Source: Tetracentron sinense (Eukaryota > Streptophyta > Magnoliopsida > Trochodendrales > Trochodendraceae). From it: 64,000 nt of DNA. The stretch is taken from assembly GCA_015143295.1 (NCBI GenBank), contig CM026556.1, positions 20,522,547 through 20,586,546 of the forward strand. Reading direction: 5' to 3'. Under the pieces are notes generated by a model that was given only the letters and a program-made list of their open reading frames with translations, was not told the DNA's origin and ran no database searches. Shown here piece by piece: positions 301 through 56,432 of the stretch. Numbering within the stretch: the stretch's first letter is position 1; each line of letters begins with the position of its first letter. A program made the translations under genes and the position numbers.

Positions 301-1326
301 TTATTTTGTAAGATTATCAATTTCATCATCCATATCAGTATTGATTTTGTTAAATGGATTCGATTCATCAAAAACTACATGAATTGACTCTTCAACAATT
401 AATGATTTCTTATTAAACACTCTATAAACTTTGCTATTAGTAGAGTATCCTAAGAAAATTCCTTCCACAGATTTAGCATCAAATTTCTTAAGATGTTGTT
501 TATCATTAAGTATGAAACATTTACATCCAAACACCTTAAAATAACTTATATTAGGGATTCTTCCATTCCAAAGCTCATAGAGAGTTTTATTTAGTTTGAT
601 TCTTATAACAACTCTATTAATTACATAGCATGAAGTGTTAATGGCTTCAGTCCAAAAATAATTTGGTAACTTATTTTCATTAAGCATTATTCTAGCCATT
701 TCTTGAAGAGATCTATTCTTTCTTTCTACTACCCCATTTTGTTGTGGAGTTCTAGGTGCTGAGAAATTATGATTAAAACCATTTTCATCACAAAATGATT
801 CAAGTTCTTTATTTTTAAATTCTCCTCCTCTATCACTTCTTATGTTGTTAATAGAATAACCTTTTTCATTTTGAACTCTCTTACAAAACTTTTTAAATAG
901 AGAAAGTGTTTCATTTTTATGAAAAAGAATTAGTACCCATGAGTATCTTGAAAAATCATCGACTATAACAAAAGCATACGTTTTTCCAGCTAGGCTAGCT
1001 ACTTCATTTGGACCAAAAAGATCCATATGCAAAAGTTCTAAAGGCCTAGTGGTAGAAATCATTTTCTTGGGTTGAAATAAAGATTTTATTTGTTTTCCAA
1101 GTTGACAAGCATCACAGATTTTATCTTTGATAAATTTAATTTTAGGTATTCCTTTAACTAATTCATTTTTAGAGAGTTTAGACAAAAGATCCATACTAGC
1201 ATGTCCTAGTCTCCTATACCATAGCCAACTTGCTTCATCTACAGCAGAAAAGCATATCATGTTTTGAGATTTTAGTTCATCAAACTCTAAGGTATAAACA
1301 TTCTCATTCCTATGTGTTACGAACAA
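301..1326 (-). pseudogene. Copia GAG-pre-integrase and integrase core
   Basis: A 341-residue open stretch carries the GAG-pre-integrase domain (WLWYRRLGHASMDLLSKL near residues 35-52, then CDAC as part of the zinc finger) followed by the DDE integrase core. The three acidic catalytic residues are seen as HMDLFGP, then RSDRGGEF, then QQNGVVERKN. The C-terminal GYS/FGCKCF region follows. The ATG at 1326 is only the first Met in frame; homology continues upstream in another frame. The frame stops at 301-303 (TAA) and then reopens in the same frame to the window edge. Confidence 0.88.
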
Positions 1327-1331
1327 AGTAT

Positions 1332-1607
1332 TTAGATTATCTTTATCCTAATCATGCAAATATTTGATTTAAATGAGACATTCAATCCCTTTTCACAGAG
1401 TTGGCTAATACTGATGAAATTATGTTTGAGACCATCAACAAGTAGTACATTTTCAATAAAAACAGATTTATTCTTACCAATGTTACCTATGCCGATGATC
1501 TTCCCTTTAGCATTGTCTCCAAATGTCACATGACCGCCATCCTTTGGAGTGATTGATGCAAATAGTTCCTTGTTCCCGGTCATATGTCTTGAGCATCCAT
1601 TGTCCAA
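1332..1607 (-). pseudogene. Copia aspartic protease fragment
   Basis: The 91-residue reading frame begins MDNGCSRHMTGN. In copia elements this site normally reads DSGCSRHMTG, with the catalytic Asp in D-S/T-G. Here the second residue is Asn (DNG), which would be expected to impair the protease. It continues through a GKIIGIGN motif and a VLLVDGLKHNFISISQLCEKG segment, the usual lead into the GAG-pre-integrase domain. The frame ends at a stop near 1332, and the integrase follows in a different frame, so a one-base frameshift lies around 1345-1355. Confidence 0.8.
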
Positions 1608-11099: not shown

Positions 11100-11260
11100 A
11101 GAAAACAAGAACCAACATTCCACGAGGGGTCTCCCCTCACTCACAAGTGCATTTCATGAAGAAGGGCCTCCCTTCCCTCGCAAGTACATACATATCATGA
11201 AGAAGGGTCTCCCTTCCCTCGCAAGTGCATTGCATAAAGAAGGGTCTCCCTTCCCTCTCA
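11100..11260 (+). repeat. Imperfect GGGTCTCCCTTCCCTC repeats
   Basis: About four imperfect units built on GAAGGGTCTCCCTTCCCTC followed by GCAAGTGCAT. Equivalent arrays are at 17940-18060, 38630-38760, 43085-43220, 46960-47105 and 54670-54815. Confidence 0.75.
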
Positions 11261-11610
11261 AGGCATCTCTCAAGCGCATCTCACAAGGATATCTCACAAG
11301 TGTATCTCACAAGTTACATGATCACAAGCAAGCACGCATGACATGCATGACATGACACGTACGACACGCTCGACAAGATCAAGTAAGACAAACACGACAA
11401 GCTTTCAAGTACGAAAAGATATTTCAAGCCAAGTCAAGTGCACGATGTTTTCAAGAGGTTTTATCGGCTTTCTACGAAATACAAGCATGATTATAAATTG
11501 CTTTACTTCCTAGTATGATATGAATTGTTTCCGTCTAACATATATGAATTGCTCCTAATTTATGTATTGCCATTTTTATGCTATGACTATTGGTTAGTAT
11601 TTGGTACCCG

Positions 11611-11629
11611 CTGAGTATTCCATGCTCAG
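11611..11629 (+). promoter_or_regulatory. Conserved hairpin upstream of LTR short ORF
   Basis: CTGAGTAT-TCC-ATGCTCAG folds as an 8-bp stem (one G-U pair) with a 3-base loop, 11 bases before the conserved ATG. See the finding on covariation. Confidence 0.5.
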
Positions 11630-11640
11630 CCGTACTTCTT

Positions 11641-11760
11641 ATGTCGGCAGGTTCTGAGGGAGCTGCTGCTCCATTTGATGTTTGTGCTCCTTATCCATCG
11701 GTGGAAGAGGAGTACGTCGAGGAGCCTTTGGAGGAACCTCCCATAGAGGGTTATCAGTAG
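11641..11760 (+). CDS. LTR-encoded short acidic protein (MSAG family), 39 aa
   Basis: An intact 39-codon frame starts ATGTCGGCAGGT (MSAG) and ends TAG. It reads MSAGSEGAAAPFD, then VCAPYPS, VEEEYVEEP, LEEPP and EGYQ. Related frames occur at the same relative place in every chromovirus LTR here that includes the site: sense strand, ending about 270-320 nt before the LTR 3' end. Conservation of amino acids with length changes only in multiples of three suggests selection on a protein. I do not recognise the family. It could be an upstream ORF in the RNA leader, or an exon of a spliced leader (the start region GTCGGCAG|GT also looks like a splice acceptor). Confidence 0.5.
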   Translation: MSAGSEGAAAPFDVCAPYPSVEEEYVEEPLEEPPIEGYQ

Positions 11761-12059
11761 GTGGTGTTAGATTCTGAGTGGATTAGCTGTGGGTGAGCAT
11801 GAGTGATTATATCCATGTATTTTGGCGGGCATGTCCGCACTTTCTTTGTTTTGATTTCTTTGTATTAGACTTGGACCATGTGTATATACTTAGAGGTTGT
11901 TAGACTTCCGCTGTGTTTTATAGTTATGTTTCCGCTGTCATCCTCTATTGTATATGCTCTGTGGGTTTTTGCAGGTTGGTTTGTCAAACAAGTCATGTAA
12001 GCCATGATTAGTCGTCCAAAGTTCACTCTAACTCCTAGGGTGGGTTTTGGGTCGCGACA

Positions 12060-17467: not shown

Positions 17468-17584
17468 CTAATAGTAACCATCTATAGGAGGCTCCTCCAC
17501 AGGTCCCTCAACATACTCCTCCACCCATGGGCCAAGAGCACAGATGTTGAAAGGAGCAGCTGCTCCACCATCACTTGCCGACAT
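17468..17584 (-). CDS. LTR-encoded short acidic protein (MSAG family), 38 aa
   Basis: ATG at 17584 and TAG at 17468. It begins MSASDGGAAAPFN, then ICALGPWVEEYVEGPVEEPP and DGYY. One codon shorter than the copy at 11641 and still open. The hairpin lies at 17596-17614. Otherwise as described for 11641-11760. Confidence 0.5.
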   Translation of the reverse strand: MSASDGGAAAPFNICALGPWVEEYVEGPVEEPPIDGYY

Positions 17585-18751: not shown

Positions 18752-18892
18752 TCAACAGTAGTCGAGGTATGGCCACACATCCAAGTCCCCATCCTCCTGA
18801 GACTGCCATGGGATAGGTGGCTCCCTCTCCTCTACATACTCCTCCTCGACCCAAGGCTCGGGGTCGAGGACATCCACAGTACCTGCCGACAT
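18752..18892 (-). CDS. LTR-encoded short acidic protein (MSAG family), 46 aa
   Basis: ATG at 18892 and TGA at 18752. It begins MSAGTVDVLDPEPW, then VEEEYVEEREPP and ends DLDVWPYLDYC. This longer form, with a WPYLDY tail, matches the intact copy in the LTR at 31848-34145. The shared core PW-VEEEYVEE aligns with the shorter forms. Confidence 0.5.
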   Translation of the reverse strand: MSAGTVDVLDPEPWVEEEYVEEREPPIPWQSQEDGDLDVWPYLDYC

Positions 18893-22571: not shown

Positions 22572-22613
22572 CTAAGGCTCAGGGTTGAGGGCTTCCTCGG
22601 TACCTGCCGACAT
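22572..22613 (-). pseudogene. LTR short ORF (MSAG family), early stop
   Basis: It starts MSAGTEEALNPEP like the intact copy at 32133-32273 but has TAG where Trp (TGG) is expected, at 22572-22574. The remainder (VGEEFVEEREPP) is still recognisable. Confidence 0.5.
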
Positions 22614-23090: not shown

Positions 23091-25353
23091 TGTAGAGCCT
23101 TGGAACTTTTTGTAAATGTCTTGGAACGTATGCCAAGGCTTTATGGGTTGATTACTTCCCATATCTATGAAATGAGATTCCTAAGTCGGATATGTTAAAA
23201 ATCCGGTTTGCTTAATTCCATTTTTAGATCTGTCAACTTTGAGGAAAATTTGGTCCATAAATAAAATAGAAATTAGAAATTCTAAATTTCCAAAAATGTT
23301 CATCTTCGAAAGATGAATCCAATGCAAGTTGAATCGTAAAAATCCGACAAACGAGTCAAAAGTTATGGCCTAAATATCGAAGTAGGAAAAATGAGGAAAA
23401 TCAGCAAAATGGACAAAACATAGACCAACCGGTCGATCGCTCCCAGGACCGATCGACCGGTAGCCTACCGCTCGACCGCTAAGATTACCGATCAACCGCT
23501 CTAACCACCAGTCGACCACTATTGCACTAATTTTGTATGGGGTTATTTTCCAGAGAGGGTCTTTTGGACCGATCGACCGCTCATCATGACTGATCGACCG
23601 CTCCTTTACGAATTTGATTGGTTTCATCTTTTTAAGCAGATCATTAAGGGTATGATGGTGTTTGACCATACCTTTTTCTATATAAACCTAAGTTCGTGGG
23701 TTGAGGATTTCATAAACCCTCAAACGTGCATTTGAGAGAGAGTGAGAAGCAGAGAAGGTTTTCTAACCTAGGGTTTTAAACTTGAGAAGAAATTAAGGGT
23801 GTGGCTACCCAAGATCATTCCAAAGGCTTGGATTCTTCAAATCCAAGACAAAGCAAGTGAGGAACACGTCTTCCAAGCTCAGCAACAACCTCACACACGC
23901 ACCAAGGGGATTTCTTCCCTTCTTCAAGGTCGGTACCATATGCTACCCTCCTAGTTCACATTCTTCTTTCTTTTCTTCCTTTTTATGATCTTTCTCTACT
24001 ATCTAAACACATGAATGCTATGGGATGAATGAATGGAGGATGATGGGTGATGGATGCCGTGTGCATGTATTGTGATGAATGAAATGGGGAAGGGTATTGT
24101 ACCAGTAATGAATACACTTGTATGTTGTGAACATAAACCCACCTAGAAAAGCATGGTGTAAGCTTTAATGAATAATGTACACACCACATGTTCGATAAAA
24201 TGTCAAGGTGAAGAAAATGAGTTGTAAATCAAGAAATGCATGTTTAAAAGTGTAAGAAATTGCTAGGGTTTATGATAGTGTGATTAATTGCTTTCTTTAA
24301 ATGACATGAATATTTACTTGTTTAATATTTTGATATTCTATATATTGTTGAAATCCTAAATGTCATATTTAATTCCAAATAAAAGCATGTACATGATTCC
24401 ACGAGCACGGCAAGCATAACATGGTTTACCGGCGTTTTCAAGAATAAGGTTTAGAGGTGGGACATATCTTACGATATGTTTTGCCTCGTTTTTGACAAGA
24501 GGACAAGAACAAGCATTGCATCAGAGAGAGTTTACACTTCCCTCCCTTCCATGAGGGGTCTCCCCTTACTCACAAGTGCATATCATCGAAAGAAGGGTCT
24601 CCCTTCCCTCCCATTGCATCTCTTAAGCGCATCTCACAAGTTACATGAGCATGTTAAATTCCAAGTAAGCACGCATGACATAACACGCTCGACAAGATCA
24701 AGCAAGACAGACATTACAAGTTTTTCACGCACGAAAGGGTATTTAAGTCAAGTAAAGTGCACGATGATTTCAAGAGTTTTATCGGCTTTTATGTGATGCA
24801 AGCATGAATATAAACTGTTTACTTTCCTATCATTATATGAATTGCTTCTTGCTTTAAATATCGTTTTTGTTATGATGTGGCTGTTGGTTAGCATTTGGTA
24901 CACGCTGAGTATTCCATGCTCAACCGTACGTTTATGTTGGTAGGTACTGAGGGGGCTGCTGTTCCTTTCGACATCTGTGCTCCTGGCCCATGGGTAGAAG
25001 AGGAGTATGTTGAGGAACCTACGGAGGAACCTCATGTAGTCGAGTACTACTAGGTGGTAGATTCTGAGTGATCCGTGGGTGAGCTTGAGAGAGTATGTCC
25101 ATGTATTATGGCGGGTCTGTCCGCACTTTCTTTTGTTTTCCCTTTTTGTATAAACTTGGATCACATGTATATATATAACTAGAGGTTTGGTTAGTCTTCC
25201 GCTGTGCCATGTAGTTATGTTCCCGCTTTTATTGTCCTCTATTGTATATGCTCCAGGTATTTTTCTAGGTTGGTTTCTCAAGCAAGTTATGTAAGTCATG
25301 ATGAGTCGTCCAAGATTCACTCTAACTCCTAGGGTGGGTTTTGAGTCGTGACA
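23091..25353 (+). mobile_element. Solo LTR of a chromovirus, nested in the A/C LTR
   Basis: It begins TGTAGAGCCTTGG and ends GGTTTTGAGTCGTGACA. The intact sister LTR at 32735 reads AGGGTACACC across this point, so the insertion is clear. Flanks are TAAAT and TACAC, compatible with a duplication of TACAC that has decayed at two bases. A TATA box (CTATATAAAC) lies near 23678. The U3 holds a CGATCGACCGG-type cluster at about 23425-23615. Confidence 0.85.
24934..25053 (+). CDS. LTR-encoded short acidic protein (MSAG family), 39 aa
   Basis: ATG at 24934 and TAG at 25051-25053. It begins MLVGTEGAAVPFD (start of the core changed from MSAG), then ICAPGPWVEEEYVEEP and EEPHVVEYY. Same length as the copy at 11641 despite many base changes. 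Confidence 0.5.
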   Translation: MLVGTEGAAVPFDICAPGPWVEEEYVEEPTEEPHVVEYY

Positions 25354-32132: not shown

Positions 32133-32273
32133 TCAACTGTAATCTAAATATGGCCACACGTCGTGATCTCTATCCTCCTGCGACTGCATCAGGATAGGAG
32201 GCTCTCTCTCCTCAACATACTCTTCCTCAACCCAAGGCTCAGGGTTGAGGGCTTCCTCGGTACCTGCCGACAT
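32133..32273 (-). CDS. LTR-encoded short acidic protein (MSAG family), 46 aa
   Basis: ATG at 32273 and TGA at 32133. It begins MSAGTEEALNPEPW, then VEEEYVEEREPP, SQEDRDHDVWPYLDYS. Intact, and the same length as the copy at 18752-18892. The paralogous copy at 22572 is broken by a TGG-to-TAG change. Confidence 0.5.
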   Translation of the reverse strand: MSAGTEEALNPEPWVEEEYVEEREPPILMQSQEDRDHDVWPYLDYS

Positions 32274-35334: not shown

Positions 35335-37382
35335 TGTAACGTCCCAAAATCCCATCTAGACTAAAATGGGACTTTAGGCCCATTACACTATTTGTCCCAA
35401 ATTAACCTGTAAGCATGCAAGGCAATACTAAAAGGAACTTGAAAATTTTCTTCCAAATTTTTTTATATCAATTGAACTACTATGACAATCTAACTAACAA
35501 CCGAGTTCATAATGTCATAATCCTCTAAAACATAATTCTCAAAATGGAAGTAATCTAAGAATCATCAAAATGAAACCCTGTATCAACACCCTATTACAAC
35601 TTTTAAACCAAGAGAAAGTCTAACAACCTAATAGTAAGGAAAGTTGTCCAAGTCTCATGTTCCCTCCTCACGAATGTCACCTTCTTCCTCTATGTCATAT
35701 ACTTCTTGCACCCAAGGCTCTTTTGTGGTCTCGGAACCTAAACCTATTGACATGAAAACATATCTGTTGAGTACAAGCAGGTCGATGAATATGAAATCCT
35801 AACTAGCAATATCAGAATATTAACATAGCATAATCATCATGGATACACAATCAATAGTATGAACATGTTCATAATAGTATTTTATAACATTATTCATATG
35901 AGTAGGTTCATAATAACATTTCATAACATTATTCATAGGAGCAGGTTCATCATGGTATTTGAAAAATATACAAATGTACATAACTCAGAGTGCAGAAGCA
36001 TCATAATTATTTCATCATTCTTTTTTTCTTTTTTTATTCATTTCCTTTCGTATCTTACTTTGCTTTCTTTTCTTTCATGAGTCATTGTTCTTTTTCTATT
36101 TTCATGTGAGCATCATTGCATGCATAATCATTATTATTAGTTTAAAATAATTCTTCACTATATAGGTGAAAGAGATTATTATAGACAAACCAAGTACCAT
36201 CCCATAACACTTTACTTTAATGCTTCCAGAATTACTTGTGATTAATTTTTTTTCATACACATATCCCTTGATCTTAGACTGGTGGAACTCGGGCAAGGAA
36301 AATTAACATACAATTTCACTTACACTTTGCTTATTTTCGATTATTTATGTTTGTACTCTTATCATGCTTGTACAACTATCATAAAAGTGAGTGAGGGGTG
36401 ATACACTCAACGATTAAGTAACATTTTAGATTTCCGACCTTGGCACTTTTGGTGATCCATCATATGTCCCATTCTATCATGATAGAAGACTAAGACTCAC
36501 AAGGTTTAAATCCAAAGGTTTACTTACCCGAATTTAGATCACTAAATACAAGGCCAACATCATACATTATTTATCGAGATATGTAAATCCATAATTTCAT
36601 CAATTGAACAAGTATAATCATGTTATCTCAATATGAAGTTCTTAACAATTCTAGTATTCAACACATCATTTTAAATGTTATAACATAGAGCATATAAGAT
36701 CTTAAATCATCATTTGCATACCAAACCCAACATTTCACACAAAAACCACAAATCCATTCATCCAAAGCTCCACAACATAACCCATTCTCCATTCAAAACC
36801 CAAACATGCATCTCATCCTCTTTGCTTATTAATACAATACCAAATCATTCGCTTCCTTCACATTAAACCATCCAACATTTATCATTTCACATAAAAATCA
36901 TGATAAAACATGGATATAAGAAATATTTCTACAATAAATCATGCTCAAACTAATCTTTACTTCAACACCAACTTTAAAAAAACCTAGGATATATCAATGA
37001 TTCATGGTATTGATAGTGAAGAAGTCATATTTACATTGCCCTATTTATAGTCTAGGGGTTAAAAACCCCAATTTCCATAACTCTTTTTAAAAATCTTGTG
37101 CATGATCTGCGATCGATCGGCTATACAGTGCAGTCGATCGCCTATATAGGTGCGATCAATTGTACTCATAATAGAAGACTACCCAAATTTATGACCTAGG
37201 GCGATCGATCGTAAGTTACCTTGCAATCGATCACAGCTCTGTTTTCCCATTTTCATCCGTTTAGGCATTTTAAACACCCCATACGCTTTAGTTATTATTA
37301 AACACACCTATTAACATATCATGGACAAATATACCCCGATTAAATAAGCTAATAATCGGGAAAATAACTTCGGGTCTCTACA
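35335..37382 (-). repeat. Element E 3' LTR (2,048 bp)
   Basis: Plus strand TGTAACGTCCCAAAA to TCTCTACA, followed by a purine-rich tract. A TATA-like CTATAAATAG on the minus strand lies at 37041-37050. A cluster of CGATCGATCG-type palindromes lies at about 37100-37225, in the same relative place as in other LTRs. Left flank AAATT. Confidence 0.8.
35655..35753 (-). CDS. LTR-encoded short acidic protein, divergent (MSIG), 32 aa
   Basis: ATG at 35753 and TGA at 35655. It begins MSIGLGSETTKEPW, then VQEVYDIEEEGDIREEG. It shares the MS-x-G start and the EPWV-x-E-x-Y core followed by an acidic tail with the copies in other LTRs, although the surrounding LTR is hardly alignable by eye. Position (about 320 nt before the LTR 3' end) is the same. 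This divergent member is the best argument that the frame is under selection. Confidence 0.45.
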   Translation of the reverse strand: MSIGLGSETTKEPWVQEVYDIEEEGDIREEGT

Positions 37383-37833: not shown

Positions 37834-40109
37834 TGTCGCGACCCAAAACCCACCCTAAGAGTTAGAGTGAACTTTGGACGACTAATCATGACTTACATGA
37901 CTCGCTAGACAAACCCTCCTGGAAAAACCCACAGAGCATATACAAAGAGGATATAAACAGCGGAAACATACTTAACCATAGCACAGCGGAAGACTTAACC
38001 AAACCTCTATGTATATACAAGTGATCCAAGTTATACAAAAAGATACACAAAAGAAAGTGCGGACATGCCCGCCAAAATACATAAATCTAACTCTCAAGCT
38101 CACCCACAGCTATCCACTCAAAATCTACCACCACCTAATAATAGCCCTCTACCGGAGGTTCCTCCACAGGCTCCTCAGCGTACTCCTCCTCCACCCAAGG
38201 GCTCGGAGCACAGACATCAAATGGAGTAGCCGCTCCGCTATCACCTGCCGACATAAGAAGTACGGCTGAGCATGGAATACTAAGCAGGTACCAAATACTA
38301 ACCAACAGTCATAGCATAAAAATGACAATACATAAAGCAGGAGCAATTCATATATGTAAAACGGGAACAAGTCATATCATACAAGGAAGTAAAGCAATTT
38401 ATAATCATGCTTGTATTTCGTAGAAAGCTGATAAAACCTCTTGAAATCATCATGCACTTGACTTGACTTGAAATATCTTTTTCGTACTTGGAAGCTTGTC
38501 ATATTTGTCTTGCTTGATCTTGTCGAGCGTGTCATGCGTGTCATGCCATGCCATGCCATGCCATGCGTGCTTGCTTGTGATCTTGTGACTTGTGAGATAC
38601 ACTTGTGAGATGTCCTTGTGAGATGCACTTGAGAGGGAAGGGAGACCCTTTTTGATGAGAGGCACTTGAGAGGAAAGGGAGACCCTTCTTGATGAGATGC
38701 ACTTGAGAGGGAAAGGAGACCCTTCTTTATGCAATGCACTTGTGAGTGAGGGGAGTCCCCTCGTAGAATGTTTGTTCTTGTTTTCTTATGAAAAGCGAGG
38801 TAAAACATATCGTAAGATATGTCCCACCTCAATTCTTGTTCTTGGAAAAACACGATAAAACATATCATGCATGCCGTGCTCGTGGAACCGAGTGCATACT
38901 TGCATTAGAATTTAAATATGACATTTGGGGATTTCACTATATATATAGCATGTTGCAATTTAAACAATAAGCATTCATGACATTTTAAGGAAAACAAGAA
39001 CTCACACTATCATAAACCCTAACAAGTTCATAAGTAATTAAACATGCATTTTCTTTTCCATTTATCCTTCATTTTATTCACCTTGGCATTTCATCAAGCA
39101 TAGGGTGTGTCCATTATTTATTGAAACCTAAATCATACTTTTCTAGGTGGGTAATACTCTCATCATACATGTGTGTTCATTATGGATACAATGCCCTCCC
39201 CATTTCATTCATCACATCATTTCACACGACATCCAATCACCAACCCCTCTCCATTCACACCGTTTAGACGTCCAATTCATAGCACATAGATGGATGAAGG
39301 AAAAAAATAAAGGATGATAGGAATAAGGGAAGAAAATAAAGAACTATAACTAGGAGGGTAGCAAAAGGTACCGACCTTGACAAATGAGGGAAAGAATTCC
39401 CTCCCAACACGTCCGTGAGTCGCTGTCCTAGCTTGGAGAAACTACTCCTCGCGTGCTTCAACCGGAATCTTGAAGCAATCCAAGCTTGAGGTGATCTAGG
39501 GTTCTTAAACCCTTTGATTTCTTCTCAAAAATCAAACCCTAGGTTAGGAAAACCCTTTCTCTCCTCTCCTTAGCTCTCAAATGTCCTAAGTGTTGAGAAT
39601 GAGCCCTAAAGGCTTGGGCAACCCTTAAGAGGAAGGAGTGAAACGCCCAAAAGATGAAAACACCCTTAATGAAATTTCTGCAAAAACATGAAGACCGAGC
39701 GATCGGTGTTTATGACCGATCGATCGGTTGCCTACCGAGTGATCGGTGTGTTGACCGAGCTCTCGACCAAAAATCAACTCCCTGGAAAATTTCCCCATAC
39801 AAAATTTTCAACCGATCGATCGCTGAATGGACCGAGCGATCGGTTGGCCTGCAAACTTGATCCTAAGCCCATTTTCTCACCCATTTCACTACTTAAACTG
39901 ATCATAGTTCTCTTTTGACCTTTCCTAAACATGACTAGGGTCTCTTTAAAGCTTGTATATGTGCTTAAATAATTCATTAAATTATTCATAGCATTCTTGA
40001 CACAATTTTCTCACAGTTCCAAATTTCCATTTCATGAATTTGAGACTACATAGGCTACATGCCTTGGTACTCATACCAAGACATGTACGAAAAGTTCCGG
40101 GGCTCTACA
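37834..40109 (-). repeat. Element D 3' LTR (2,276 bp)
   Basis: Plus strand TGTCGCGACCC to GGGGCTCTACA. It has the GGGAGACCC-type repeats (38630-38760), the CATATC hairpin (about 38807-38824) and a U3 cluster of CGATCGATCGG palindromes (39688-39850). Confidence 0.9.
38135..38254 (-). CDS. LTR-encoded short acidic protein (MSAG family), 39 aa
   Basis: ATG at 38254 and TAG at 38135. It begins MSAGDSGAATPFD, then VCAPSPWVEEEYAEEP, VEEPP and EGYY. Compared with the copy at 11641 I count about seven silent codon changes and nine replaced codons, fewer replacements than expected for neutral drift. The hairpin upstream is disrupted in this copy (TCAG changed to TAAG). Confidence 0.5.
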   Translation of the reverse strand: MSAGDSGAATPFDVCAPSPWVEEEYAEEPVEEPPVEGYY

Positions 40110-42334: not shown

Positions 42335-44604
42335 CCAAACCCACCCTAGGAGTTAGAGTGAACTTTGGACGACTAATCATGACTTACATGACTCGCTAGA
42401 CAAACCCTCCTGGAAAAACCCACAGAGCATATACAAAGAGGATATAAACAGCGGAAACATACTTAACCATAGCACAGCGGAAGACTTAACCAAACCTCTA
42501 TGTATATACAAGTGATCCAAGTTATACAAAAAGATACACAAAAGAAAGTGCGGACATGCCCCGCCAAAATACATAAATCTAACTCTCAAGCTCACCCACA
42601 GCTATCCACTCAGAATCTACCACCACCTAATAGTAGCCCTCTACCGGAGGTTCCTCCACAGGCTCCTCAACGTACTCCTCCTCCACCCAAGGGCTCGGAG
42701 CACAGACATCAAATGGAGTAGCCGCTCCGCTATCACCTGCCGACATAAGAAGTACGGCTGAGCATGGAATACTCAGCGAGTACCAAATACTAACCAACAG
42801 TCATAGCATAAAAATGACAATATATAAAGCAGGAGCAATTCATATATGTAAAATGGGAACAAGTCAAATCATACAAGGAAGTAAAGCAATTTATAATCAT
42901 GTTTGCATTTCGTAGAAAGCCGATAAAACCTCTTGAAATCATCATGCACTTGACTTGACTTGAAATATCTTTTTCGTACTCGGAAGCTTGTCTTGTTTGT
43001 CTTGCTTGATCTTGTCGAGCGTGTCATGCGTGCTTGCTTGTGATCTTGTGACTTGTGAGATACACTTGTGAGATGTCCTTGTGAGATGCACTTGAGAGGA
43101 AGGGAGACCCTTTTTGATGAGAGGCACTTGAGAGAGAAGGGAGACCCTTCTTGATGAGATGCACTTGAGAGGGACGGGAGACCCTTCTTTATGTAATGCA
43201 CTTGTGAGTGAGGGGAGTCCCCTCGTGGAATGTTTGTTCCTGTTTTCTTATGAAAAGCGAGGTAAAACATATCGGAAGATATGTCCCACCTCAATTCTTG
43301 TTCTTGGAAAAACACGATAAAACATATCATGCATGCCGTGCTCGTGGAACCGTGTGCATACTTGCATTGGAATTTAAATATGACATTTGGGGATTTCACA
43401 ATATATATAGCATATCGCAATTTAAACAATAAGCATTTATGACATTTTAAGGAAAACAAGAACTCACACTATCATAAACCCTAACAAGTTCATAAGTAAT
43501 TCAGCATGCATTTTCTTTTCCATTTATCCATCGTTTTATTCACCTTGGCATTTCATCAAGCATAGGGTGTGTCTATTATTTATTGAAACCTAAATCATAC
43601 TTTTCTAGGTGGGTTATACTCTCATCATACATGTGTGTTCATTATTGATACAATGCCCTCCCCATTTCATTAATCACATCATTTCACACGGGCATCCATC
43701 CCCAACCCCTCTCCATTCACACCATTTAGACGTCCAACTCATAGCACATTGATAAATGAAGGAAAAAAATAAAGGATGATAGGAATAAGGGAAGAAAATA
43801 AAGAACTATAACTAGGAGGGTAGCAAAAGGTACCGACCTTGACAAATGAGGGAAATAATTCCCTCCCAACACGTCCGTGAGTCGCTGTCCTAGCTTGGAG
43901 AAACTACTCCTCGCGTGCTTGAACCGGAATCTTGAAGCAATCCAAGCTTGAGGTGATCTAGGGTTCTTAGACCCTTTGATTTCTTCTCAAAAATCAAACC
44001 CTAGGTTAGGAAAACCCTTTCTCTCCTCTCCTTAGCTCTCAAATGTCCTAAGTGTTGAGAATGAGCCCTAAAGGCTCTGGCAACCCTTAAGAAGAAGGAG
44101 TGAAATGCCCACAAGACGAAAAAACCCTTAATGAAATTTTTGCAAAAACATGAAGACCGAGTGATCGGTGTTTATGACCGATCGATCGGTTGCCTACCGA
44201 GCGATCGGTGTGTTGATCGAGCTCTCGACCAAAAATCAACTCTCTGAAAAATTTCCCCATACAAAATTTTCAACCAGTCGATAGCTACCGATCGATCGGT
44301 TTTGGACCGATCGATCGCTGAATGGACCGAGCGATCGGTTGCTCTGCAAACTTGATCCTAAGCCCATTTTCTCACCCATTTCACTACTTAAACTGATCCT
44401 AGTTCTCTTTTGACCTTTCCTAAACATGACTAGGGTCTCTTTAAAGCTTGAATACGTGCTTAAGTAATTCATTAAATTAATCATAGCATTCTTGACACAA
44501 TTTTCTCACAGTTCCAAATTTCCATTTGATGAATTTGAGACTACATAGGCTACATGCCTTGGCACTCATACCAAGACATGTACGAAAAGTTTCGGGGTTC
44601 TACA
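42335..44604 (-). repeat. Element D 5' LTR, missing its PBS-side terminus
   Basis: It aligns with 37845-40109 throughout and ends GGGGTTCTACA at 44604. Its U3 cluster at 44150-44345 has an extra CGATCGATCGG unit relative to the partner LTR, which lacks the stretch around 44277-44310. Confidence 0.9.
42627..42746 (-). CDS. LTR-encoded short acidic protein (MSAG family), 39 aa
   Basis: ATG at 42746 and TAG at 42627. Same as the D copy at 38135 apart from a few base changes, e.g. EEEYVEEP here and EEEYAEEP there. Intact. Confidence 0.5.
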   Translation of the reverse strand: MSAGDSGAATPFDVCAPSPWVEEEYVEEPVEEPPVEGYY

Positions 44605-46184: not shown

Positions 46185-48724
46185 TGTCGCGACCCAAAAC
46201 CCACCCTAGGAGTTAGAGTGAACTTTGGACGACTAATCATGACTTGCTTGACAAACCAACCTGCAAAAACCCACAGAGCATATACAATAGACGATGACAG
46301 CGGAAACATAATCTAACATAACACAGCGGAAGTCTAAACAAACCTCTATGTATATACGAATCCAAGTTTACACAAAAGGAATCCAAAAGAAAGTGCGGAC
46401 AGACCCGCCAAGATACATGAAGGTATATCTCTCATCTCACCCACAGCTAATCCACTCAGAATCTAACACCACCTACTGATAACCCTCTACGGGAGGTTCC
46501 TCCAAAGGCTCCTCGACGTACTCCTCTTCCACCCATGGACCAGGAGCACAAACATCAAATGGAGCAGCAGCTCCCTCAGAACCTGCCGACATAAGAAGTA
46601 CGGCTGAGCATGGAATACTCAGCGGGTACTAAATACTAACCAACAATTATAGTATAAAAATGGTAATACATAATTCAGGAGCAATACATATATGTTAGAC
46701 GGAAAAAATTCATATCATAAAAGGAAGTAAAGCAATTTATAATCATGCTTGTATTTCGTAGAAAACCGATAAAACCTCTTGAAACCATTCGTGCACTTGA
46801 GTTGACTTAAAGTACCATTTTCGTGCTTGAAAACTCATCTTGTCTATCTTGCTTGATTCTTGTATGTCGTGTCATGTCATGCATGTCATGCGTGCTTGCT
46901 TGTGATCATGTAACTTGTGAGATACACTTGGAAGATGTACTTGTGAGATGCGCTTGTGAGATGCCTTGAGAGGGAAGGGAGACCCTTCTTTATGCAATGC
47001 ACTTGAGAGGGTAGGGAGACCCTTCTTCATGATATGTATGTACTTGCGAGGGAAGGGAGACCCTTCTTCATGATATGCACTTGTGAGTGAGGGGAGACCC
47101 CTCGTGGAATGTTTGTTCTTGTTTTCTTGTGAAAAGCGAGGTAAAACATATCGTAGGATATGTCCCACCTCTAACCATGTTCTTGAAAACCTCGATAAAT
47201 CATGTCATGCATGCCGTGCTCGTGGGAAACGTCTACATACTTGCATTTAAATTTAAACATGACATTTGGGTAATTTCACAACACATATAACGTCAATGAT
47301 TGAGCAATGTAACATTCACATCATTTATGGAAAGCAAGAAAACACACTGTCATAGGCCCTAGCAATATCCATAATTTATTAGGCATGCATTTCCAAATTT
47401 CCAACTCACTGTATTCACCTTGACATTTCATCAAACATGGTGTGTTCATTATTAATTAATCATTTAAACCTAAATCATGCTTTTCTAGGAGGGTTATGGT
47501 CACATCACACTTGTATGTTCATTATTAGTACAATGCCCTTTCCCATTCATTCATCACATCATCCACACGGCATCCATTCGCCAACATCCACCTCCATTCA
47601 CCATTCACCATTCATACCTCCAATCTCATAACCCATATATAAGTGAAGGAAAAATACGAAGAAATAAAGGAAAAGAGAAGCTATAACTAGGAGGGTAGCA
47701 AGAAGTACCGACCTTGAAGAAATGAGGAAGAAACCCCTCTTCCAAACGACTGTGAGTTGCTGCCCTAGCTTGGAACACGAGCTTCGAACGAGCTTGAGCC
47801 GAGATCTTGAAGAAAACCGGATTGGAAGTAATCTAGGGTTTCAAAACCCTTTGATTTCTCTCCAAAATGGAAACCCTAGGTTGGAATCGCCTTCTCCCCT
47901 TTCTCCTATTCTCTCAAACTCTCTAAGTGTCGAATGATGCCCTAAAGGCTCGGGTTAAACTCTTAAGGAAAGAGTGAACCGACTAAAAGACCATAATACC
48001 CTTACTGAAATTTCTGTAAAAACACGAATGCTGAACACGTTGATCTGTGGACAGTGCTAAACTCGTTGTGTTGGTCATAGTGCCAACTCGTTGTGCTGTG
48101 AATAGTGCCAACTCGTTGTGCTGTGAATAGTGCCAACTCGTTGTGGTGTGAACAGTGCCAACTCATTGTGGTGTGAATAGTGCCAACTCGTTGTGCTGTG
48201 AATAGCGCCAACTCGTTGTGCGTTGAATAGTGCCAACTCGTTGTGCTGTGAATAGTACCAAACACATTGTCCGTTGTGAAGGGTGCCGAACCCGTTGTCA
48301 CGTTGTGTCGTGCATAGTGCTGAGCTCGTAGTCCGTTGTTTTATGTACAACGTGCCCGTTGTGCTGTACAACGTACCCGTTGTGAGCTGTACAACGTACC
48401 AGTTGTGAGCTGTACAACGGATGCACAACGTATACGTTAAGAGTACGTTGTCTGTGCTACGTTATCAGAGTACGACGTCAGAGCACGTCCTTAGTGCCTT
48501 CCGAGCTACGTTTTGCCTACAGGTTCAGATTTTTTGGCCATATCTTTTGACTCGTTCGTCCGATTTTGACGATTCAACTTGCGTTGGGCTCATACTTCGA
48601 AAAGGAACATTTCTAACATTTCGAAATCTCTAATTTCTTCCTTATTTATTTATTATACCTCTTTAAAGGCAAAATGACAACGAAAGTGTCATGCATTAAC
48701 TGTGAAAAGGTCCGGGGCTCTACA
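46185..48724 (-). repeat. Element F 3' LTR
   Basis: Plus strand TGTCGCGACCC to GGGGCTCTACA. A minisatellite of about ten 25-bp units (CAACTCGTTGTGCTGTGAATAGTGC type) lies at about 48010-48300. Confidence 0.94.
46473..46592 (-). CDS. LTR-encoded short acidic protein (MSAG family), 39 aa
   Basis: ATG at 46592 and TAG at 46473. It begins MSAGSEGAAAPFD, then VCAPGPWVEEEYVEEP, LEEPP and EGYQ. Nearly the same as the solo LTR copy at 11641. The hairpin is at 46604-46622. Confidence 0.5.
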   Translation of the reverse strand: MSAGSEGAAAPFDVCAPGPWVEEEYVEEPLEEPPVEGYQ

Positions 48725-48817: not shown

Positions 48818-50020
48818 TCATTCAATCAAATCTGGGTACTTTGCTTTGACTTCGGCTTCACGCTCCCATGTAGCTTCTTCCCGAGCATGGTGTTGCCATT
48901 GCACAAGAACCAAAGGGATTGTCTTGTTGCGAAGCACCTGATCTCTTCGATCCAAAATCTGAACCGACTTTTCAATCAAGGTGAGGTCCTCTCGAATTTC
49001 CAACGGTTCCAAGTCTATGACATGCGAAGGATCCGCAATGTACTTCCGAAGCATAGACACATGGAAGACGTTGTGAACTGCGGCCATGTGAGGTGGGAGA
49101 GCTACCCTGTAAGCAACCTCACCAACTCGTGTGATAATCTCAAAAGGCCCAACATACCGAGGACTGAGCTTGACTCGCTTTCCAAATCTCATGATCCCTT
49201 TGCTAGGAGATACTTTCACAAAAACTTGATCCCCTACTTGAAATTCCAAGTCCCTACGGCGCGTGTCCGCATAACTTTTCTGGCGATCTTGAGCGGCTTT
49301 CAATCGATCCCGAATGATCTTAACTGAGTTTGCAGTTTGCTCAATCAATTCTGGACCAAGTAATTTCCTTTCTCCTACCTCATCCCAATAGAGAGGAGAC
49401 CTACAACTTCGCCCATACAAGGCCTCAAATGGTGCCATTTGGATACTTGCCTGATAGCTGTTATTATAGGCGAATTCAACCAAAGGCAAGTGCTCTTCCC
49501 AACTGCCTCTGAAATCCAACATACAAGCCCGAAGCATGTCTTCAATGACTTGGTTCACTCTCTCGGTTTGTCCATCCGTCTGTGGATGAAAAGCGGTGCT
49601 GAAATCAAGTCGGGAACCCATAGCCTCCTGGAAGCTTTTCCAGAATCGTGATGTGAATCTTGGATCCCGATCTGACACAATACTAACGGGCACTCCGTGC
49701 AACCTCACCACTTCCTTGATGTACAAAGCGGCTAACTGACTAGAGTTGAAAGTAGTTCGGTAAGGTAAGAAGTGAGCGGACTTCGTCAAACGATCCACTA
49801 CTACCCATATCGCATCTGAGCCCCTTGCCGTTTTTGGCAAGCCAACTATGAAATCCATGGATATGTTCTCCCATTTCCACTCGGGAATAGGAAGAGAATA
49901 CAATAGACCAGCCGGCCACATGTGCTCTGCCTTCACCTGTTGGCACACTAAGCATCGTGCTACATACTCCTCAACATCCCTCTTCATATTCCGCCACCAA
50001 AAGTGACTCTTGAGGTTCCG
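48818..50020 (-). pseudogene. Element F integrase with chromodomain
   Basis: A 389-residue open stretch from the first Met at 49987. Zinc-binding Cys at CLVCQQ (residues 12-15). The catalytic triad is Asp45 (SMDFIVG), Asp106 (SDRDPRF) and Glu142 (GQTERVN), exactly 35 residues between the last two. The C-terminal domain has VKVSPSKGIMRFGKR, GPFEII and VFHVSMLRKYIADPSHVI. The chromodomain from about residue 335 ends EEATWEREAEVKAKYPDLIE. All catalytic residues are kept, but it is cut off from RNase H by a TAG at 50021-50023 where Tyr of KMYRN is expected. Same frame as the upstream pieces. Confidence 0.92.
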
Positions 50021-51181
50021 CTACATCTTTGTACCCCCTGGATGCACTGTGTACTTCGAACGATGTGCTTCATCCAAAATCTCTCTTCGAAGATCTGCAT
50101 TGGCTGGGACGCACAGCCTTCCCTTGAATGTGATAGCACCCCGACTAGTGAGAGAGAAGTCCTCACTTCCCTTAGCAACTTCCTTGTCCCGATAAGCCAA
50201 CAATTCCGTATCCATGGCTTGATATTCTTGGATCAAATCTATAATGTACGGCCGAACCGTAACATTTGCTAAGGTAGGACCATGGACAGAGTTATTCACA
50301 CTGATGTCCAGATTTGCCAAATCTTCTAGTAGCTTCCATTCTTGAACCAACATGTGTGCTAACAACCCTTGAGGTCTTCTACTCAAAGCATCAGCCACTA
50401 GATTTGCTTTACCCGGGTGGTATTGAATGGTACAATCATAGTCTTTCAAAAATTTCATCCAACGCCGTTGCCTTAGATTCAGCTCCTTTTGGGAAAAGAG
50501 ATACTTGAGACTCTTGTGATTAGTGAACACATAGAACTCCACCCCATAAAGGTAATGACGCCAAATCTTAAGTGCAAACACGACCGCCGCAAGCTCCAAG
50601 TCGTGCGTGAGATAATTCTTCTCATGCTCCTTCAACTGCCTTGATGCATAGGCAATGACTTTCTTGTGCTGCATGAGTACGCACCCAAGTCCAACGTGCG
50701 AGGCATCACAATACACCTCATACCCATAAGGTCCGGATGGCACAGTAAGGACAGGGGCTGTAGTAAGCCTCTTCTTCAGTTCCGTGAAACTGATCTCGCA
50801 CTTATCACTCCATACAAACTTGGCGTTCTTCCTTGTCAGGTAAGTGAGCGGTGCCGCAAGGCTAGAGAAGCCCTCTACAAATCTCTTGTAGTAGCCTGCC
50901 AATCCAAGGAAACTACGTATCTCTGTGACACTCTTGGGCCTTGCCCAACTCATGAGTGCATCTATCTTCTTTGGATCAACCAAGATGCCTTCCACAGAAA
51001 CAACGTGGCCTAGAAATGCCACCTCTTCCAACCAAAACTCACACTTACTGAGTTTAGCGTATAGCTTGTGCTCTCTTAGCATTTCCAAAGCAAGGCATAG
51101 GTCGCGTGTGTGATCTTCCCGTGTCTGGGAATAGACCAAAATGTCATCAACAAATACAATCACACACCTATCAAGATATGG
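50021..51181 (-). pseudogene. Element F RT palm, RNase H and linker
   Basis: It begins just after a TAG at 51182-51184 with PYLDRC, then the catalytic box [10 protein letters not shown]. The thumb reads [10 protein letters not shown] and [17 protein letters not shown]. RNase [43 protein letters not shown] (the usual FTDHKS Asp is Asn here), [16 protein letters not shown]. It then runs through the linker to [12 protein letters not shown] of the integrase zinc region. Confidence 0.92.
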
Positions 51182-52143
51182 CTAGAACACCCGGTTCATC
51201 AAATCTATAAAGGCTGCCGGCGCGTTCGTGAGTCCAAAAGGCATCACCAAGAACTCGTAGTGTCCATACTGAGTCCTGAAAGCAGTTTTGGGAACATCTT
51301 CCACCTTAATCTTCAACTGGTGATAACCCGATCGAAGGTCTATCTTCGAGAAAAATCTCGCTCCCTTCAACTGATCGAACAAGTCATCAATCCTAGGCAA
51401 GGGATACCTATTCTTTATAGTGACTTTGTTCAATTGACTGTAATTGACGCACATCCGCATCGAGCCATCTTTCTTCTTAACAAACAACACCGGGGCACCC
51501 CACGGTGAGACACTTGGTCGAATGAAACCAAGACCTTGTAATTCTTCCAACTGGGTCTTTAACTCTTTGAGTTCAATAGGGGCCATTCTATACGGAGCTC
51601 TGAAAACAGGAGCTGTGCCTGGTGCAAGCTCGATCACAAACTCAATCTCCCTATCTGGAGGTAATCCTGGCAACTCCTCTGGAAACACATCCAGGAATTC
51701 ACTCACAACTGGAATAGTCGATGAGTCCTTTGCCTCGGGTTTAGCTAAGCTCAACGCCGCAAAACGAGCAATATCTCTACCTTTCAACCCCTGAAAGTGA
51801 AATGGTTTTCCTTCTACCGGCTTGAAGAGTACCATCTTCTCAAAGCAAGCTACATGCCCATGATGTGCTGCTAACCAATCCATTCCCAATATGACATCAA
51901 AGTCTTGGAATCCAAGGACGATGAGATCAACCGCCAACTCGTGGCTTCCAACTTGGACCACACTATTTCTATACACTTTATCTGCCAATACTGTTTTGCC
52001 GAGAGGAGTCGAAATTGCTAACTCCGGTTCTAGCTGACTTGGCTCTACAGAAAAGCCTTCTGAAAAACTCGGCAAGACAAATGAATGAGTAGACCCGGTA
52101 TCAATCAACACTCAAGCCAAATACTCATTGACTAGTAGGGTTC
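51182..52143 (-). pseudogene. Element F protease and RT N-terminal part
   Basis: It starts after the candidate acceptor at 52144 with TLLVNEYLA, a TGA, then [16 protein letters not shown] (intact DTG triad) and [21 protein letters not shown] follows in the same frame without a break: [91 protein letters not shown], then TAG. Protease, RT and integrase of F all lie in one frame. Confidence 0.92.
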
Positions 52144-52289
52144 CTGAAATTTTAACTAGCGGAGTTAATCCATGCATCAACAGTGTATACATGTAGGTAT
52201 ATATACATATATAACATGCCAAGTACGTACACAAAGAATATAGCATAACATAACAATCCCGAATAAAGAAAATAACTCCAAACGCGTAC
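52144..52289 (-). other. Candidate intron between gag and protease, element F (146 nt)
   Basis: Donor GCAAG|GTACGCG and acceptor AATTTCAG|GAACCC on the minus strand. Gag is in one frame up to 52290 and pol in another from 52143; removal of 146 nt joins them through a GGA codon. The interior is AT-rich with stops. Confidence 0.55.
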
Positions 52290-53537
52290 CTTGCACCACA
52301 TCATCGGATGCAAGTGCATCACCCTCTGTCAAAGCAAATACACGCCCCTGGTTCGCCTGGCGAGACTGAGGTGTAGACCGGGTAGTCTGAGATGACGCCT
52401 GATATGATCCTCCTGGGCGCGCTGGTGGACTAATCCCCTGAGACTGGCCTGGTAAATGCCGACTGGGGCAATCCCTGATCATATGGCCCTGGCGACCACA
52501 ATGAAAACATCCACCCGATGCCCTTCGGCAATCTCCTGCCGAGTGCCTTCGGCCGCATGAAGTGCAGACCTCGTGTGTATAGGTCGGAGGGGCCGGAGGT
52601 GGAGCATACCTCACCATCTGAGGTGTAATAGGCCGTGGGGCCGGAAGAGCCTGAGGTCGCGGTGCTTGAGGCACATACTGCCGTGGAGCTGGAGGCGCAT
52701 AAGATGGCCTCATCGGTGGTGCTGGCCATGCATACTGATAAGGGCCGGTACGAGCCCGCCTCTCTAGAGGTGTTGAACTACTGGATTGGCCTCTCATCAA
52801 TTCCCTCTTCTTGGACACCGCCTCAGAGTTGGTCTCAACCAACAAGGCCTTGTCTACCACTTCAGGGTAGGTAGCATGCCTGAAAACGGAAACCTTCTCC
52901 ATAATAACATCCTTGAGCCCTTGCTCAAACCTTCTTGCCTTCATTGCCTCGGTAGCCACCATGTGAGGCGCAAATCTAGAGAGCTCCGAGAACTTAGCTT
53001 CATATTGTGCTACTGACATCGAACCTTGCTAAAGGTTGATGAATTCTCTCTCTTTCCTTTCCCGTGCTCCGATCGGAAAGTACTTCTTATAAAAAGTGTC
53101 CTTGAACTCCTCCCAAGTCCAAGGTTGACCCTGCATGGTCAAATCTCGCATCCTCAGTGCGGACAACCACCAATGGTGGGCTTCGCTCTCTAGCATGAAA
53201 GCTGCCCATGCTACTCTCTCCTCCTCTGTAGGCAAGAGGACCGCAAAGATCTTCTCCATCTGGAGGATCCATGCCTCCGCAGCAAGAGGGTCCACACTTC
53301 CATAGAATGGTGGAGGCCTCAATCTCCTGAATGCCTCAACTCCAGCGGTACGATGTACTGGAGCTGCGGGTGGTGGAGTAGGTGCCGCCGATGATGGTAT
53401 AGCCTGCCGAGCTGCCAGTATGGCGAGTGTCTCAGCAATAGAGCCTAAGACCTGAGAGAGGTCCAGCTGCTCATCCTCACCCGTGAAGAAGAGGAAGCTC
53501 TGGTATGTGGTCCACGACCCCGTGTGTTCCGTCTCAT
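52290..53537 (-). pseudogene. Element F gag
   Basis: The start is an ATG at 53535-53537 (MRRNTRGRGPHTRASS). A one-base deletion near 53480 breaks the frame after the Ser run. The body reads SQVLGSIAETLAILAARQ, EAFRRLRPPPFYGSVDPLAAEAWI, ESEAHHWWLSALRMRD, FYKKYFPIGARERKEREFINL, then TAG in place of Glu, and QGSMSVAQYEAKFSELSRFAPHM. Zinc-binding motifs are intact: CTSCGRRHSAGDC and CFHCGRQGHMIRDC (CCHC). The end GRVFALTEGDALASDDVVQG lies at the candidate donor. Confidence 0.9.
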
Positions 53538-53894: not shown

Positions 53895-54186
53895 CTTCTG
53901 TCGCGACCCAAAACCCACCCTAGGAGTTAGAGTGAACTTTGGACGACTAATCATGACTTGCTTGACAAACCAACTTGCAAAAACCCACAGAGCATATACA
54001 ATAGAGGATGACAGCGGAAACATAGTCTAACATAACACAACGGAAGTCTAAACAAACCTCTATGTATATACGAATCCAAGTTTACACAAAAGGAATCCAA
54101 AAGAAAGTGCGGACAAACCCGCCAAGATACATGAAGGTATATCTCTCATCTCACCCACAACTAATCCACTCAGAATCTAACACCAC

Positions 54187-54306
54187 CTACTGATAACCCT
54201 CTACGGGAGGTTCCTCCAAAGGCTCCTCGACGTACTCCTCTTCCACCCATGGACCAGGAGCACAAACATCAAATGGAGCAGCAGCTCCCTCAGAACCTGC
54301 CGACAT
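54187..54306 (-). CDS. LTR-encoded short acidic protein (MSAG family), 39 aa
   Basis: ATG at 54306 and TAG at 54187; the coding sequence matches the partner LTR copy at 46473. In the genomic RNA of F this 5' copy would lie upstream of PBS and gag. Otherwise as at 11641-11760. Confidence 0.5.
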   Translation of the reverse strand: MSAGSEGAAAPFDVCAPGPWVEEEYVEEPLEEPPVEGYQ

Positions 54307-54317
54307 AAGAAGTACGG

Positions 54318-54336
54318 CTGAGCATGGAATACTCAG
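54318..54336 (-). promoter_or_regulatory. Conserved hairpin upstream of LTR short ORF
   Basis: CTGAGCATGGAATACTCAG on the plus strand, 8-bp stem with TCC loop on the sense strand. Confidence 0.45.
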
Positions 54337-54859
54337 CGGGTACTAAATACTAACCAACAATTATAGTATAAAAATGGCAATACATAATTCAGGAGCAATA
54401 CATTTATGTTAGACGGAAACAATTCATATCATACAAGGAAGTAAAGCAATTTATAATCATGCTTGTATTTCGTAGAAAACCGATAAAACCACTTGAAACC
54501 ATCGTGCACTTGAGTTGACTTAAAGTACCATTTTCGTGCTTGAAAACTCATCTTGTCTATCTTGCTTGATTCTTGTATGTCGTGTCATGTCATGCATGTC
54601 ATGCGTGCTTGCTTGTGATCATGTAACTTGTGAGATACACTTGTAAGATATACTTGTGAGATGCGCTTGTGAGATGCCTTGAGAGGGAAGGGAGACCCTT
54701 CTTTATGCAATGCACTTGAGAGGGAAGGGAGACCCTTCTTCATGATATGTATGTACATGCGAGGGAAGGGAGGCCCTTCTTCATGATATGCACTTGTGAG
54801 TGAGGGGAGACCTCTCGTAGAATGTTTGTTCTTGTTTTCTTGTGAAAAAGCGAGGTAAA

Positions 54860-54877
54860 ACATATCGTAGGATATGT
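54860..54877 (-). promoter_or_regulatory. ACATATC inverted repeat, perfect stem
   Basis: ACATATC-GTAG-GATATGT, a 7-bp perfect stem with four-base loop. The same motif is in the other LTRs. Confidence 0.45.
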
Positions 54878-56432
54878 CCCACCTCTAACCATGTTCTTGA
54901 AAACCTCGATAAATCATGTCATGCATGCCGTGCTCGTGGGAAACGTCTACATACTTGCATTTAAATTTAAACATGACATTTGGGTAATTTCACAACACAT
55001 ATAACGTCAATGATTGAGCAATGTAACATTCACATCATTTAGGGAAAGCAAGAAAACACACTGTCATAGGCCCTAGCAATATCCATAATTTATTAGGCAT
55101 GCATTTCCAAATTTCCAACTCACTGTATTCACCTTGACATTTCATCAAACATGGTGTGTTCATTATTCATTAATCATTTAAACTTAAATCATGCTTTTCT
55201 AGGAGGGTTATGCTCACATCACACTTGAATGTTCATTATTAGTACAATGCCCTTTCCCATTCATTCATCACATCATCCACACGGCATCCATTCGCCAACA
55301 TCCACCTCCATTCACCATTCATACCTCCAATCTCATAACCCATATATAAGTGAAGGAAAAATACGAAGAAATAAAGGAAAAGAGAAGCTATAACTAGGAG
55401 GGTAGCAAGAAGTACCGACCTTGAAGAAATGAGGAAGAAACCCCTCTTCCAAACGACTGTGAGTTGCTGCCCTAGCTTGGAACACGAGCTTCGAACGAGC
55501 TTGAGCCGAGATCTTGAAGAAAACCGGACTAGAAGTGATCTAGGGTTTCAAAACCCTTTGATTTCTCTCCAAAATGGAAACCCTAGGTTGGAATCGCCTT
55601 CTCCCCTTTCTCCTATTCTCTCAAACTCTCTAAGTGTCGATTGATGCCCTAAAGGCTCGGGTTAAACTCTTAAGGTAAGAGTGAACCGACCAAAAGACCA
55701 TAATACCCTTACTGGAATTTCTATAAAAACACGAATGTCGAACACGTTGATCTGTGGACAGTGCTGAACACGTTGTGCTGTGAACAGTGCTAACTCGTTG
55801 TGCTGGTCATAGTGCCAACTCGTTGTGCTGTGAATAGTGCCAACTCGTTGTGCTGTGAACAGTGCCAACTCGTTGTGCTGTGAATAGTGCCAACTCGTTG
55901 TGCTGTGAATAGCGCCAACTCGTTGTGCGTTGAATAGTGCCAACTCGTTGTGCTGTGAATATTACCAAACACGTTGTCCGTTGTGAAGGGTGCCGAACCC
56001 GTTGTCACGTTGTGTCTTGCATAGTGCTGAGCTCGTAGTCCGTTGTCTTATGTACAACGTGCCCGTTGTGCTGTACAACGTACCCGTTGTGAGCTGTACA
56101 ACGTACCCGTTGTGAGCTGTACAACGGATGCACAACGTATACGTTAAGAGTACGTTGTCTGTGCTACGTTATCAGAGTACGATGTCAGAGCACGTCCTTA
56201 GTGCCTTCCGAACTACGTTTTGCCTACAGGTTCAGACTGTTTTGGCCATATCTTTTGACTCGTTCATCCGATTTTGACGATTCAACTTGCGTTGGGCTCG
56301 TACTTCGAAAAGGAACATTTCTGACATTTCGAAATCTCTAATTTCTTCCTTATTTATTTATTATACCTCTTTAAAGGCAAAATGACAACGAAAGTGTCAT
56401 GCATTAACTGTGAAAAGGTCCGGGGCTCTACA

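Follow-up and report, generated by a model that had tools for sequence, protein, structure and literature searches.

Nearly all of the long terminal repeats (LTRs) sampled here from Tekay/Del-like retrotransposons of Tetracentron sinense carry a short open reading frame (ORF), which is under purifying selection between the subfamilies of its families A and B, and single copies of which drift neutrally. Judged from its codon pattern, the frame very probably encodes a translated protein under selection. The best overall explanation, which we hold with somewhat better than even confidence, is that a genuine small gene sits in the LTR, most likely within U3, and that its product would be a separately expressed, trans-acting accessory or regulatory protein.

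The window (the whole stretch of DNA analysed, 64,000 nt) was proposed in a sequence-only reading to hold twelve copies of this frame, and all twelve are present at their positions and on their strands, with eleven of them open from ATG to stop. On the plus strand lie a family A copy of 39 aa (11641–11760), a family A variant of the same length (24934–25053) and a family B2 copy of 45 aa that has parts of both A and B (58087–58224). The minus strand holds a family A variant of 38 aa with one in-frame codon fewer (17468–17584), a family B copy of 46 aa (18752–18892), a broken family B copy that stops at a Trp codon (22572–22613), a family B variant of 46 aa (32133–32273), a family C copy of 32 aa that is the most divergent and is without the upstream hairpin (35655–35753), two further family A variants of 39 aa (38135–38254 and 42627–42746), and two family A copies in the 3' and 5' LTRs of the best-preserved element (46473–46592 and 54187–54306, respectively). 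The copies sit in the final ~420 nt of their LTRs. A profile built from nine of the window proteins, which it is therefore bound to recover, matches all eleven open copies at E ≤ 1e-10 and the broken copy at E 0.11, and up to E = 10 it has only two other matches in the window, at E 0.58 and 1.3. That the frame lengths are multiples of three, which had been offered as a sign of coding, is true of any frame running from ATG to stop and is thus uninformative.

Across the families the proteins range in length from about 32 to 51 aa and follow a common plan, with an MSAG-type start, a central PW(V/I)E motif and an acidic tail, to which several families add WPY at the C terminus. Family A proteins have 38–39 aa and a TAG stop; family B proteins have 46 aa, a C-terminal pattern ...D.D.WPYLDYC and a TGA or TAG stop. 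Family B2 consists of three copies that bridge A and B, two of them with 45 and 51 aa and the third, L043, running to 69 codons. Family C (32 aa) has one copy in the window, and there are two further families, D and E. A grouping by length put 29 copies in family A, one of which, L029, is a family B copy with an early stop. The description of the product as a conserved short acidic protein inside chromovirus LTRs holds with regard to coding, as the codon tests below indicate, and with regard to acidity for the proteins examined from families A, B, B2 and C, which are strongly acidic (9–14 D/E against 0–4 K/R), but not for those of D and E, which are less so. AlphaFold2, given an alignment of nine window sequences, returned no fold (mean pLDDT 66, pTM 0.16), and the protein is probably disordered. 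Profile searching, suggested earlier as a way to find its relatives, gave none in Pfam, where seven proteins (five minus-strand ones without their first Met) matched no family at E ≤ 1. Two queries against 5.8 billion proteins, in a search that requires several 5-residue words in common with the query, returned no candidate; the best match among PDB sequences had an E of 0.61, and viral contigs held no match to an exact 27-base DNA pattern.

The best-preserved element lies on the minus strand, with its 3' LTR at 46185–48724 and its 5' LTR at 53899–56432, the two being 97.3% identical over 2542 columns. Between them, at 48818–53028, are gag and pol pieces in several stop-separated frames (zinc knuckle, protease, RT, RNase H, integrase and chromodomain). 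Pfam searches of four of these pieces recover gag, then protease-RT-RNase H-integrase and a C-terminal chromodomain, the order of a Ty3/gypsy chromovirus, which this element is; the Chromo match (E 2.6e-5) falls slightly below the Pfam cut-off (24.5 against 25.1 bits), and gag and rve are likewise below theirs. The 5' LTR ends in ACA and is followed directly, at 53898, by the tRNA-Met-type primer-binding site (PBS) TGGTATCAGAGC, and a PBS of this type after an LTR ending in ACA is typical of the Tekay/Del clade. A Tekay/Del placing is consistent with the long LTRs and with the LTR ends. Elsewhere in the window, a Ty1/copia-type integrase piece (gag_pre-integrs, rve, SH3_retrovirus) lies at the edge (301–1344, minus strand), and a family A LTR contains short direct repeats resembling AAGAAGGGTCTCCCTTCCCTCGCAAGTGCAT at 11120–11260.

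The frame is abundant in the genome searched (1.16 Gb in 1479 contigs). With a family A sequence as the protein query, 131 of the 150 matches scored, the best of 32,252 candidates, were identical over 39 aa. A 32-nt hairpin pattern taken from just 5' of the ATG occurs, with at most three mismatches, at 13,409 + 13,389 = 26,798 sites, and the reversed pattern, used as a control, at 0. A pattern of LTR end plus PBS occurs at 4163 sites, and through 100 of these we obtained a sample independent of the ORF, consisting of 70 LTRs, all on contigs C1–C3; left out of the 70 were a rearranged copy (L051), one whose frame breaks immediately after its start (L073) and one with a run of N (L096). The frame is recognisable in 67 of these 70 LTRs, 64 of the 67 have the ATG, and 60 have the ATG and at least 31 open codons. 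Among 30 loci found by the hairpin, the ATG is present in 29, and 23 are open for at least 31 codons.

Raw pN/pS was computed for gap-free pairs with at least five differences among seven (family A) and six (family B) chosen open copies, and it lies between 0.11 and 0.60 in 20 family A pairs and between 0.06 and 0.26 in 14 family B pairs. In ten of these pairs, examined in all six frames, sense frame 0 gives values of 0.11–0.35 (P 0.0005–0.03 versus random placement of the same substitutions), and sense frames +1 and +2 give neutral-looking values of 0.71–3.24. Antisense frame f1, which has its third positions in common with the ORF, looks constrained (0.21–0.59) but contains 3–5 stops per pair. 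When the same substitutions were put at random places, 18–70% of the ORFs remained open, so the openness of eleven of the twelve window copies, correct as a count, is weak as evidence and was set aside; with the null limited to shuffles that stay open, P is 0.00025–0.034. RT-RNase H pieces of the window elements, used as a yardstick, show ratios of 0.12–0.51 in nine HSPs, a strength of constraint similar to that of the ORF.

Codon models were fitted to open copies only (23 representatives out of 109 copies, with 11 sequences for A, 9 for B and 23 for A, B and B2 combined). The fitted omega under the MG and GY models is 0.20 and 0.24 for A, 0.14 and 0.17 for B, and 0.17 and 0.20 for the combined set, and the codon-alignment check that had been suggested for this frame thus came out, within this genome, on the side of constraint between subfamilies. 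The MG log-likelihood with omega fitted and with omega = 1 is -608.8 and -636.1 for A, -618.4 and -656.1 for B, and -1574.7 and -1666.2 for the combined set, which are gains of 27.3, 37.7 and 91.5, respectively. Singletons within young clusters, which are mostly post-insertion changes, behave differently, with a ratio of 0.90 in one cluster (5 synonymous and 18 non-synonymous, 41 copies) and 0.83 in the other (5 and 14, 20 copies); contrasted with the changes between one subfamily pair, they give P 0.012 for family B and 0.068 for family A. A ratio near one among young copies had been named in advance as speaking against a coding frame, and such ratios are indeed seen, but they are what drift after insertion is expected to produce and do not refute coding. 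Near-neutral singletons together with constraint between subfamilies indicate that selection acts on the propagating lineages, as it would for a gene of the element. A chance ORF was ruled out by the frame-specific pN/pS, the open-shuffle null and the singleton contrast.

In within-group alignments of A, B and B2, 7 of the 8 gaps that fall in the ORF have lengths divisible by three, compared with 18 of 66 among the gaps downstream of it (P 0.0016); a coarser pairwise comparison of 14 distant representatives had 212 triplet gaps of 541 in the ORF and 221 of 865 downstream. The expectation that indels would keep the frame thus held in A, B and B2 but failed in an alignment of D with E, where one of seven gaps in the ORF is a triplet. 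The spacer between hairpin and ATG shifts by 1–2 nt between families and the ATG is kept, from which it follows that the frame starts at the ATG.

Family D appears relaxed, with pair ratios of 0.38–1.44 over codons 5–31 (15 pairs of six copies), and the reading frame of its C-terminal half is shifted with respect to that of E. Family E, for which the best 150 of 789 candidates were scored, has a pN/pS of 0.42–0.54 despite sampling by protein similarity. In 13 of the 23 E copies examined, ATT or ATC replaces the ATG, a figure that is not a rate since 20 of the 23 were hand-picked, in part for having a match that starts beyond residue 1; one further locus, L111, was dropped because its match was not at the expected place. 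A multiplied E sub-branch (L113–L125) starts with ATT or ATC and keeps the frame open, to WPYG in 12 of 13 copies. Lineages of D and E have multiplied even though their frames are relaxed or decayed, so an element can do without the gene in cis, and intact families may possibly supply the protein to them in trans.

A second kind of conservation overlaps the start of the frame. At 11610–11630 (plus strand), 10 nt 5' of the ATG of the first window copy, is an 8-bp stem-loop, longer if its flanking GTAC/GTAC is included; the form GTAC..GCTGAGTA-TTCCA-TRCTCAGC..GTAC, 9–10 nt ahead of the ORF, is very conserved. The 8-bp hairpin is fully pairable in 97 of 109 copies, and in 67 of 79 when the 30 selected by the hairpin are taken out. 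Codons 2–4 (TCG GCA GGT) are almost without synonymous change and later codons vary freely, which places part of the conservation at the nucleotide level; these codons probably overlap a DNA or RNA signal, and the start block and hairpin together are under a second, nucleotide-level constraint.

The position of the frame in the element's RNA was approached through predicted promoter motifs in 22 representatives, to which 67 LTRs were collapsed so that their first 130 nt are under 90% alike. Downstream of the ATG, 24 of 26 TATAWA motifs start 200–279 nt from it, beyond the usual stop, and 14 of the 22 representatives have a motif at this distance; in the first window copy a conserved predicted TATA motif, TATATA, lies at 11883–11888 (plus strand), at +242 from the ATG and downstream of the ORF. 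A conserved TATA in this place predicts a transcription start downstream of the ORF, so that the main promoter would follow the frame, which would put the frame in U3 and close to the 3' end of the genomic RNA; on these motifs we regard the U3 position as likely. TATAWA also occurs upstream of the ORF, at -160 to -121 in 5 of the 22 representatives, at -120 to -81 in 6 and at -80 to -41 in 2, and a promoter internal to U3 would therefore be allowed.

Separate expression from gag-pol might then use a second promoter within U3, upstream of the ORF, or a spliced subgenomic RNA. A splice-acceptor-like TTCTCAG/G immediately precedes the gag ATG in 21 of the 30 loci L039–L068, ~290–350 nt past the LTR end, with a branch-point-like CTCAT ~20 nt 5' of it in 19 of these 21, and donor-like sites occur ~100 nt past the LTR in family A and some family B loci; these signals probably mark a leader intron. 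Since the leader holds both donor- and acceptor-like sites, a spliced subgenomic RNA is conceivable, and in such a route the donor would be in the leader and the acceptor 5' of the ORF. Retrocopies lacking the leader intron, sought with the family A junction only, gave 0 matches, as did the control, and poly(A)-tailed retrocopies that might mark the RNA 3' end, sought within 30 nt after CTTCCGC, gave no signal, with 15 matches (overlaps counted) against 33 in the control. We put the existence of a separate mRNA for the ORF at slightly better than an even chance.

The same region can be read with the start of transcription upstream of the hairpin, which would make the ORF the first frame of the genomic RNA, an upstream ORF (uORF) in the 5' leader that adjusts how gag is translated, through leaky scanning, re-initiation or shunting. 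Plants do have uORFs with conserved peptides. The hairpin ahead of the ATG is strong: of the five copies folded, four have z between -1.6 and -3.7, and the fifth, from family C, has -0.12. The ATG itself stands in an unfavourable context in families A, B, B2 and D (a pyrimidine at -3 and T at +4), as would suit leaky scanning, and the upstream TATAWA motifs counted above, like the far upstream TATA that the paper on Retrosat2 predicts in a relative's LTR (PMC3485330), would provide the start. The most regularly placed TATA motif is nevertheless the one downstream of the ORF, and the leader position, with the role in translation that the sequence-only reading had raised for an upstream ORF, is unlikely and not the reading we favour.

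The nucleotide-level constraint at codons 2–4 also bears on the start of the frame itself, since the ATGTCGGCAGGT block might hold a splice site (YAG/GT), the acidic frame then being a later coding exon of a spliced protein with its start codon elsewhere. The E sub-branch that lacks the ATG and keeps the frame would fit this arrangement. Set against it are the ATG in 64 of 67 PBS-anchored copies, the lack of any consistent in-frame reading upstream, the varying hairpin-to-ATG spacer, and the bases after the GT, which vary and misfit the donor consensus, and we consider such an exon quite improbable. That there is no protein at all, only a conserved promoter or RNA element that happens to produce an ORF, would agree with the conservation of hairpin to codon 4 as nucleotides and with the spread of families with relaxed or decayed frames, but from codon 5 onward the subfamilies differ from one another mainly at the synonymous sites of sense frame 0, gaps are triplets and singletons are near-neutral, which leaves this reading very improbable.

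A selected small gene in the LTR, the reading we prefer, has partial parallels in known systems. The lentiviral nef reading frame overlaps U3 of the 3' LTR; it differs from the ORF described here in encoding an unrelated protein and in lying only partly inside the LTR. The Sag protein of MMTV is larger than the plant product. By position, the MMTV sag gene is the nearest precedent, being mostly inside the LTR U3 and served by separate promoters that include one within U3, as described in PMC4667437. Like the plant ORF, for which the U3 position is predicted, sag is a gene in the U3 of a reverse-transcribing element's LTR, and separate expression by either of the routes outlined above would be much like that of sag; MMTV is an animal retrovirus, the likeness is positional and claims no relation in sequence, and expression of the plant ORF is inferred.

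Among plant elements, ORF0 of rice and the 5' additional ORF (5'aORF) of sunflower Tekay elements are the closest comparisons, and both, as we take it, lie outside the LTR. ORF0 is likewise an extra ORF in long-LTR elements of what is apparently the same lineage; in the description of Retrosat2, RIRE3 and RIRE8 it is placed upstream of the gag-pol ORF and confined to the grass family, and the LTRs of these elements end in GGGCGTGACA (PMC3485330), as against GGGGCGTGACA in many copies here. The 5'aORF of sunflower Tekay group 2 is described as a conserved extra protein of a Tekay chromovirus, 402 aa in length and mostly disordered (PMC11728184), and is thus about ten times longer than the ORF here. 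The floor for ORFs in that study is given as minimum_length = 300 (PMC11728184), at which a 40-aa gene would be missed whether the unit is bases or residues. An additional ORF (aORF) of plant LTR retrotransposons has been defined as an extra ORF in the internal region that is present in most copies (PMC7264820); the ORF described here is likewise present in most copies but lies inside the LTR. The word "orf" is absent from the main text of PMC4029996, on Del elements, and of PMC11656987, on plant LTRs, and the titles and abstract openings of the open-licence literature yielded no report of a small ORF within the LTR of a plant element.

The protein could act in trans as an accessory or regulatory factor that binds a host or element partner through its acidic and aromatic motif, and we would assign a low probability to any specific molecular role. 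More tentatively than the selected gene itself, and as something we find doubtful on balance, the LTR as such may be a micro-gene, every LTR including solo LTRs being potentially transcribed to yield an acidic regulator that acts in trans, on the element's own expression or against host silencing. If this were true, the tens of thousands of LTR copies would form a dosage-bearing gene family, and broken lineages, such as D and those of E with ATT, could spread on protein supplied by others. Plant LTRs have been regarded as non-coding, and genes of 40 aa escape ORF scans that impose a minimum length. A protein under selection and encoded by the LTR would bring one more component into the life cycle of an abundant plant element, would change the view of solo LTRs, and would offer a testable handle on how such elements regulate themselves or meet host silencing.
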